Of a DNA stretch of 39,968 nt, positions 31,837 to 39,968 are shown piece after piece (the first letter of the stretch is position 1; every line of letters starts with the position of its first letter). The DNA is taken from assembly GCA_013203625.1 (NCBI GenBank), contig JABMPX010000016.1, positions 1 to 39,968 on the forward strand, written 5' to 3'. The position numbers and the translations under genes were made by a program. The DNA is from Parcubacteria group bacterium. GTDB taxonomy: Bacteria > Patescibacteriota > Minisyncoccia > Portnoybacterales > UBA2143. The notes under the pieces were generated by a model. It was not told the origin of the DNA. It saw only the letters and a program-made list of their open reading frames with translations, and did not search any database.

Positions 31837-31910
31837 TGCCGGGTCGTCTAATGGTAGGACTGCAGATTTTGAATCTGTCTATCGGGGTTCGAATCCCTGC
31901 CCGGCAGCCA
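31837..31910 (+). tRNA. tRNA-Gln(TTG)
   Basis: TGCCGGG...CCCGGCA-G-CCA; anticodon loop TTTTGAA (TTG); T-loop GGTTCGAATCC. Confidence 0.95.
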
Positions 31911-37742: not shown

Positions 37743-38674
37743 TGTTTCCAAAAGTTTTTATTATCATCCTTAATTGGAATAATTGGCCGGATACTTTAGA
37801 ATGTTTAGAATCGCTTAAAAACAATGACTACCCTAATTATCAGGTAGTCATTGTTGATAATGGGTCAAAAGAGAAATTCCAAATTTCAGATTCTGGGATA
37901 AAGGTTATTTATAATAAAAAAAATCTTGGGTTTTCTGGCGGGAATAATGTTGGTATTAAATACGCATTAGAACATGAAGCTGATTATGTTTTGCTTTTAA
38001 ACAATGACACTATTGTTAGCCAAAGTTTTTTAAGTAAATTGATTGAAATAGGGGAAAGTGATAATGATTTTGGGATTTTGGGCCCCAAGATTTATTTTAC
38101 TGATGAGCCTAAAAGAATCTGGTTTGCCGGGGGCCAAATTAACTGGCTATATAACAGAGGGACAATGAAAGGGTATGGCGAAATAGATAAGGGGCAGTAT
38201 AATAGTTCGGAGATATCCGCCAAAGGCGGACCAGCCTCTGGCTGGCAACAAGCGGAATATATTACTGGTTGCTGTCTTTTAATTAAAAAAGAAGTTATAA
38301 AAAAAATTGGTTTAATGCCAGAAGAGTATTTTTTGTATTACGAAGATACTGATTGGTCTTTAAAAGCGCAGAAAGCTGGATTTAAATGTATTTTTGTCCC
38401 AGAGGCCAGAATCTGGCATAAATGTTCAAAAAGTTCTATTGAAGGCTCTTCTTCATATATTTATTATCATATTAGAAATGGTCTAATCATGGCTCGAAAA
38501 TACGCTCCTTGGTATATTAAGCCATTAGTCCATTTAAATGCTTGGCAGCGGATTATCAAACAGATGATTAAATTGATTTTTTTTCCAAAAAAGCGGATTT
38601 GGGCCAAGTATATTTTATTAGGCATAAAGGATTTTTATTTTAAAAAATACGATAAATATGAAAATTGGAATTAA
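37742..38674 (+). CDS. Family 2 glycosyltransferase
   Basis: VFIIILNWNNWPDTLECLESLKNNDYPNYQVVIVDNGSKE, LLLNNDTIV, YFLYYEDTDWSLKAQKAGF. Confidence 0.93.
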   Translation: MFPKVFIIILNWNNWPDTLECLESLKNNDYPNYQVVIVDNGSKEKFQISDSGIKVIYNKKNLGFSGGNNVGIKYALEHEADYVLLLNNDTIVSQSFLSKLIEIGESDNDFGILGPKIYFTDEPKRIWFAGGQINWLYNRGTMKGYGEIDKGQYNSSEISAKGGPASGWQQAEYITGCCLLIKKEVIKKIGLMPEEYFLYYEDTDWSLKAQKAGFKCIFVPEARIWHKCSKSSIEGSSSYIYYHIRNGLIMARKYAPWYIKPLVHLNAWQRIIKQMIKLIFFPKKRIWAKYILLGIKDFYFKKYDKYENWN

Positions 38675-39797
38675 TGCGCACAATTTAGAAGGAAAAAGAA
38701 CTGGAGTTGGCCGTTATTTAGTAAATTTGCTTGATAATTGGAATCAATTGGACATTCCAACTGATTTAGAATTTATTTTATACTTTAAATCAGAAATTCC
38801 CAAAGATATTGATTTATCTAATAAATTTCAGAAAAAACTTCTTAGCATTTCAAGTAATGCCTTGTTTATGCATTATGGATTGCCCAAAGCAGCAAAAAAA
38901 GATGAAGTTGATTGGCTTTTTTGTCCAGGATATATTGCCCCAATATTTTATCAAGGCAAGATTGCTCTTGCTTTGCATGATATTATTTATCAAGCGCATC
39001 CAGAATTATATAATTGGCCAAGTATTTGGGACAAGATTTTGCTTAAGAAATTCTCTAAAATTTCTGCTAAAAAGGCCAAAATTATTTTTACCCCTTCAGA
39101 ATTTAGTCGTCAAGAAGTTATTAAACATTATCAAACAGATCCAGCAAAAGTTTTTACAACACTTTTAGCAACTGATGATGATTTTAAGTTGATTAACAAT
39201 CAAGGGGAATTGGATAAAATTAAGGGGAAATATAAAGTTAAAAATAAATTTATTCTCTATATTGGTTCTATTTTTAATCGTCGCCATTTACCAGAAACAA
39301 TTAAGGCATTTAAAAAAATAGCCAAAGAATTAACAAATTATCAATTTTTAATTGTTGGCATTAATCATACATCTCCATTTATTGATATTAATGGATTAAT
39401 TAAACAAGTTAATCAAAAATTAAATAGAGAAGCAGTTTTACATCAGGATTATCTAAGCGGGAAAGATTTAGTTCTGCTTTATAACGCAGCTGATTCATTA
39501 ATTTGGCTTTCTGATTATGAAGGTTTTGGTTTGCCTGTTTTAGAAGCAATGGCCTGCGGTACACCGGTCATAACAAGCCCAATTGCTTCTATTCCAGAGG
39601 TGGCAGGAGATTCAGCGATTTATATTCAGGATAATTCTAATATTAATGAAATTTCAGAGGGGATTTATAAAGGATTAACTGATGAAAATTTAAGGCAAGA
39701 TTTAATTAATAAGGGATTAACTCAAGTCCAAAAATTTTCCTGGCGAAAATGCGCTCAGCAAACACTTGACGCTTTGTTAAATTGTGGAGTAAAATAA
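38658..39797 (+). CDS. Family 4 (GT-B) glycosyltransferase
   Basis: MKIGINAHNLEGKRTGVGRYLVNLL, LSDYEGFGLPVLEAMACGTPVITSPIASIPEVAGDSA. Confidence 0.93.
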   Translation: MKIGINAHNLEGKRTGVGRYLVNLLDNWNQLDIPTDLEFILYFKSEIPKDIDLSNKFQKKLLSISSNALFMHYGLPKAAKKDEVDWLFCPGYIAPIFYQGKIALALHDIIYQAHPELYNWPSIWDKILLKKFSKISAKKAKIIFTPSEFSRQEVIKHYQTDPAKVFTTLLATDDDFKLINNQGELDKIKGKYKVKNKFILYIGSIFNRRHLPETIKAFKKIAKELTNYQFLIVGINHTSPFIDINGLIKQVNQKLNREAVLHQDYLSGKDLVLLYNAADSLIWLSDYEGFGLPVLEAMACGTPVITSPIASIPEVAGDSAIYIQDNSNINEISEGIYKGLTDENLRQDLINKGLTQVQKFSWRKCAQQTLDALLNCGVK

Positions 39798-39843: not shown

Positions 39844-39877
39844 TCCGCGGTAGCTCAATGGTAGAGCAGTTGACTGT
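39844..39877 (+). tRNA. tRNA-Asn(GTT) 5' exon, interrupted in the anticodon (3' exon outside window)
   Basis: TCCGCGG-TA-GCTCAATGGTAGAGC-A-GTTGACTGT; tRNA-Asn-like 5' half ending after anticodon GT. Confidence 0.7.
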
Positions 39878-39968
39878 GAATAATTGCAGCTTTCCTAAGT
39901 AATTAGGATTGAAAAACGAGGTGAATTGCGGGAAGCCTAAGTTATATAATATGGTAATCCGCAGCCAA
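39878..39968 (+). ncRNA. Group I intron, 5' part (IC3-like), truncated by window end
   Basis: P element AATTGCGGGAAGCC (39924-39937) and Q element AATCCGCAGCC (39956-39966) with P4 TGCGG/CCGCA; P1 CTGT^...GCAG with U-G at the splice site; P2 CCTAA-GTAA-TTAGG. Confidence 0.85.

Follow-up and report, generated by a model that had tools for sequence, protein, structure and literature searches.

A group I intron in the anticodon of a tRNA-Asn gene at the edge of a Parcubacteria contig

A tRNA-Asn(GUU) gene at the right edge of contig C14 appears to be split between positions 35 and 36, within its anticodon, by a group I intron that continues off the contig end. Judging from sequence comparisons, we assign this reading a probability of approximately 0.96. 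The window, by which we mean the whole stretch of DNA that was analyzed, comprises all 39,968 bases of this contig and forms part of an assembly of 470 kb in 22 contigs that is 89% complete. At the sequence level the insertion, the identity of the exon and the structure of the core are established, while a two-step splicing chemistry would follow from membership in the group I family. The intron is real, but it is an element of an already known kind.

The 5′ exon and the intron core

The 5′ half of the tRNA lies exactly where the initial annotation had placed it, at positions 39844-39877 of the + strand. It corresponds to tRNA-Asn positions 1-35 and comprises the 5′ strand of the acceptor stem (UCCGCGG), the D-arm, the 5′ strand of the anticodon stem (GUUGA), the loop bases CU and the anticodon bases GU. 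An identical 34-nt 5′ half is found in the intronless tRNA-Asn gene of genome G001, and the D-stem pairs in 45 of 45 aligned homologues. When both strands of the window were considered, the second-best match to this half was of 20 out of 34 bases, at a tRNA-Gln; an intact tRNA-Gln(UUG) gene is present in the window at 31837-31910. Upstream of the tRNA, and outside the intron, an ORF at 38658-39797 (+ strand), named glycosyltransferase-like from a reading of its sequence alone, provides a syntenic marker.

The tRNA half is followed by the first 91 nt of the intron (39878-39968, + strand), at which point the contig stops. A group I core had been proposed here and a comparison with the RF00028 covariance model had been recommended. 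In our cmscan analysis, model positions 1-101 matched 39868-39968 with 45.1 bits (E-value 4.4e-10), the match being truncated at its 3′ side by the contig end. This score is below the gathering score of 50 bits, as expected given that 152 of the 253 positions of the model fall off the contig. The complete orthologues, which match model positions 1-253, reached 103.9, 87.7, and 87.1 bits, all above the gathering score. P3, P7 with its G-binding site, P8, and P9 would lie past the contig end in the window copy, and they are found in the orthologues. The closest intron-bearing relatives among those sampled are L108 (NYYU01000049.1, Parcubacteria group) and L057 (PFWG01000019.1, Candidatus Portnoybacteria), and the window intron is 90% identical to that of L108 (genome G005).

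We analyzed the pairing of the core in an alignment of 45 homologues. The predicted P1 helix, in which CUGU at the exon side (39874-39877, + strand) pairs with the intron guide sequence GCAG (39886-39889, + strand) and U35 forms a U.G pair at the 5′ splice site, was present in the window and in all 45 aligned sequences. Since neither strand ever varies, P1 yields no evidence of covariation, and the constancy of CTGT and of the P4 motif is partly built in because the search pattern used to collect the homologues fixed both. The GCAG guide, the terminal G of the intron, the UAA start of the 3′ exon and the stem pairing were all outside that pattern, the terminal G receiving a small bonus in the exon finder. 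The P2 hairpin UCCUAA-GUAA-UUAGGA (39893-39908, + strand) was paired in 94.8% of cells, and two-sided (compensatory) changes were found in six out of six of its pairs. The core motifs AATTGCGGGAAGCC (39924-39937) and AATCCGCAGCC (39956-39966) represent the two sides of P4/P5, an element spanning 39927-39963 (+ strand) with P4 as UGCGG...CCGCA and P5 as GCC...GGU, which shows covariation and matches the RF00028 consensus. P4 was paired in 100% of cells, with a two-sided switch between G-C and U-A (19 versus 26 sequences), and P5 in 87.4%; two-sided changes were thus abundant in P2 and in one pair of P4. Altogether, P1, P2, P4, P5, and the D-stem were paired in 96.9% of cells, compared to 82.2% (sd 0.8) when sequences were shuffled and at most 51.8% in controls made by sliding. 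The P4-P6 core of the window intron may resemble that of subgroup IC3.

Same-locus orthologues and alternative explanations

Within the same bacterial family, the glycosyltransferase-like ORF precedes a tRNA-Asn gene, with or without an intron, in genomes G001, G002, and G004 to G008 (55-71% amino acid identity). At this locus, an intron is present in G005, G006, and G002 and one with a different core type in G004, while the tRNA-Asn genes of G001, G007, and G008 are intronless; G002 and G008, which differ in this respect, are from the same genus. In G001, whose flank is 97% identical to the window, a nearly identical leader and the shared 5′ half are directly followed by UAAUCAAUUGG...CCGCGGAGC. 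The occurrence of genes with and without the intron at a single locus indicates an insertion/deletion polymorphism rather than an assembly artefact. In the complete orthologues (G005, G006, and G002) the sequence continues after the terminal G with TAAUC(A/C), which results in an uninterrupted tRNA-Asn once the exons are joined. They therefore carry the 3′ exon that had been anticipated, beginning with UAA and having the matching stem and acceptor strands, and the identity of the host as tRNA-Asn is strongly supported by these same-locus genes.

As the contig ends within the intron of the window, the 3′ part of the core and the 3′ exon would be located in an assembly gap. When the rest of the assembly was searched for the 3′ half, a pattern gave two unrelated matches, and BLAST with the orthologous 3′ half returned short tRNA T-arm matches only. 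Given this absence from the assembly, the 3′ core or exon may have decayed in this particular genome. A contig that ends 91 nt into an intron, together with a 3′ exon that was not found, could also reflect a dead tRNA fragment or a chimera, in which a tRNA-Asn 5′ half was misassembled onto unrelated intron-like sequence. We regard this as very improbable. The same junction and gene context occur in L108/G005, L057/G006, and L007/G002, which are independent assemblies with intact 3′ exons, and no intact tRNA-Asn that could serve as a replacement was found elsewhere in the genome. The initial annotation had advised looking for such an uninterrupted copy. ARAGORN called 34 intact tRNA genes in the parts of this genome that bear tRNAs, and the anticodon GTT was absent from all of them; the intact-Asn pattern likewise gave no matches in the genome, although a second copy may lie in a gap because the genome is 89% complete. 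At 39844-39968 ARAGORN calls no tRNA at all, which voids the earlier remark that an intact-gene reader would miscall the anticodon as GTG (His). Anticodon position 36 is outside the 5′ half, and a tRNA-Asp (GUC), tRNA-His (GUG) or tRNA-Tyr (GUA) could have the same bases before the cut. That the host is one of these is, in our estimation, next to impossible: the intronless tRNA-Asn of G001 has exactly this 5′ half, position 36 is U in all 56 complete homologues tested, and the assembly contains intact tRNA-Asp and tRNA-His genes while no intact tRNA-Asn was found.

A further alternative concerns the extent of the inserted DNA. The intron could be part of a larger integrative element, with a large serine recombinase acting at the tRNA-Asn 3′ end and integration bringing in the intron together with a 3′ exon, so that the tRNA is preserved. 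Convergent large serine recombinase ORFs do adjoin intron-bearing tRNA-Asn genes in nine loci. However, an adjacent recombinase was found at 9 of 40 intronless control loci and at 9 of the 59 loci with an intron, of which many have short flanks, and we dropped the link between intron and recombinase because these genes are at least as common at the intronless controls. In L098 (Taylorbacteria, reverse strand) the acceptor strands, UCCGGUG and CCGCGGA, are mismatched, as if the 3′ end were of foreign origin; its anticodon stem, in contrast, matches its own 5′ half, which places the exchange downstream of the intron. We consider an integrative origin very unlikely. The loci having a convergent large serine recombinase at or inside the tRNA-Asn 3′ end are L060, L062, L077, L082, L084, L086, L091, L098, and L119 with an intron, and L147, L153, L158, L166, L167, L179, L181, L182, and L185 without one. 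This suggests that elements with a serine recombinase often integrate at tRNA-Asn in these bacteria. The downstream flank of L098 resembles that of L007 (G002), as if an incoming element had replaced the 3′ end.

Distribution among bacterial genomes

We scanned 85,462 species-representative genomes with a pattern consisting of the tRNA 5′ half and the P4 motif. The resulting 70 loci comprised 59 with both exons, six truncated by the end of the sequence, and five chance matches. Matches in Fervidicola and Vreelandella were rejected because the tRNA-Asn gene there is uninterrupted and the core motif matches by chance, and those in Geomicrobium, a Bacillota MAG and a Granulicella MAG because inspection by eye showed no tRNA 5′ half before the motif. 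The exons were joined in 56 of the two-exon loci, and the remaining three (L076, L094, and L098) were read by eye. Joining restored the anticodon GUU in 56 out of 56 homologues, in agreement with the proposed tRNA-Asn identity, and the intron ended in G in 56 out of 56. The exon-intron boundary lay at GU^U in every homologue, as had been predicted for the window from the position of P1. Intron lengths in the 56 tested ranged from 194 to 345 nt (median 238 nt), and covariation was seen in both arms of the anticodon stem among the two-exon homologues.

The hosts are mostly Patescibacteria from many lineages. Seven loci, two of them truncated, are from Omnitrophota, and most of these have their own tRNA-Asn sequence type. 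One locus each is labelled Nitrospirae, Chloroflexi or Acidobacteria, and these bins are doubtful; at least one of L081 (Chloroflexi) and L120 (Acidobacteria) must be misbinned, because their tRNA halves and flanks are identical. Among 387 sampled genomes of the class, the intron pattern was detected in 6 and the intact pattern in 87, numbers that are lower bounds rather than estimates of prevalence since both patterns are strict. A second core type (GGGATAACGGTGAA-like rather than AATTGCGGGAA) was observed at the same tRNA-Asn site in L010 (G004), L015, L016, and L046.

Splicing, mobility and relation to known introns

If the intron behaves as other members of its family, the GCAG guide would pair with the exon sequence CUGU to form P1, in which the U.G pair would mark the 5′ splice site. 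Splicing would start with the attack of a guanosine cofactor after U35, and the 5′ exon released in this way would next attack after the terminal G. Ligation of CUGU to UAA would restore the anticodon loop CUGUUAA. All decoding of Asn codons in such a cell would rest on a ribozyme where an essential, single-copy tRNA is self-spliced inside its anticodon. An intron-split tRNA-Asn also explains why such genomes would seem to lack a tRNA-Asn in the output of annotation pipelines.

The 91 nt of intron in the window contain no homing endonuclease ORF, and none is expected, the intron of the closest orthologue being 220 nt long. The intron of L034 (G035), of 556 nt, has an HNH-like ORF with a PF01844 score of 21.5 bits (cutoff 21.4), and that of L046 (G040), which has the other core type, has an HNH-like ORF scoring below the cutoff. 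Both ORFs are short and lie in P1, separating the guide sequence from the 5′ splice site, in introns at the same GU^U site. Their presence suggests that these introns may be mobile, and HNH-type ORFs in some same-site introns are consistent with DNA homing. Given that intronless orthologues exist and that some same-site introns carry such ORFs, we presume the intron to be a selfish passenger that has been gained and lost at the GU^U site. A single family with intron-bearing and intronless orthologues, two core types and occasional HNH ORFs offers a natural series well suited to research on how group I introns are gained and lost in reduced genomes.

In cyanobacteria and proteobacteria, tRNA group I introns reside in Leu(UAA), fMet(CAU), Arg(CCU), and Ile(CAU) genes. 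They are small, interrupt the anticodon loop, and have a U.G pair in P1 and a terminal G. The intron described here differs from them in host tRNA and position, being in Asn between positions 35 and 36. In the portion available to us, a survey of bacterial tRNA introns names fMet and Ile2 as hosts (PMC8450103). The rRNA genes of CPR bacteria harbor well-described group I introns, with endonucleases that are mostly of the LAGLIDADG type (Tsurumaki et al., 2024, PMC11270868). These introns are similar to the tRNA-Asn introns in host clade, intron class and the presence of endonuclease ORFs, but they have rRNA hosts, and the ORFs in two of our tRNA-Asn introns are HNH-like. It was also noted during genome circularisation that some CPR tRNAs are hard to detect owing to group I introns (Lui et al., 2021, PMC8172020); the accessible part of that report gives no isotype or insertion site, in contrast to the tRNA-Asn GU^U site defined here. 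A preprint whose title claims a novel insertion site deals with group I introns of Patescibacteria tRNA genes (Nakagawa et al., 2025) and, as far as its title goes, shares with our study the phylum, the intron class and tRNA hosts. The initial annotation's view that an Asn host would be unusual is therefore only partly upheld, as the site is repeatedly occupied in Patescibacteria and tRNA group I introns of this phylum are already the topic of that 2025 preprint. Our literature search, with most subscription papers and preprints outside its reach, retrieved no mention of a group I intron in a bacterial tRNA-Asn gene. We tentatively raise the idea, which we hold to be more doubtful than probable, that GU^U of bacterial tRNA-Asn is an unreported group I site common to Patescibacteria and Omnitrophota. 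It would host at least two intron subtypes, with HNH ORFs inserted in the P1 of some introns, as a result of repeated horizontal spread into an essential and often single-copy tRNA gene.

Brute-force exon joining of all group I matches in the relatives was too permissive to provide a clean list of isotypes. Group I introns in L025, L029, L035, L026, and L039 appear to split tRNA-Phe(GAA) and tRNA-Met(CAU) genes.
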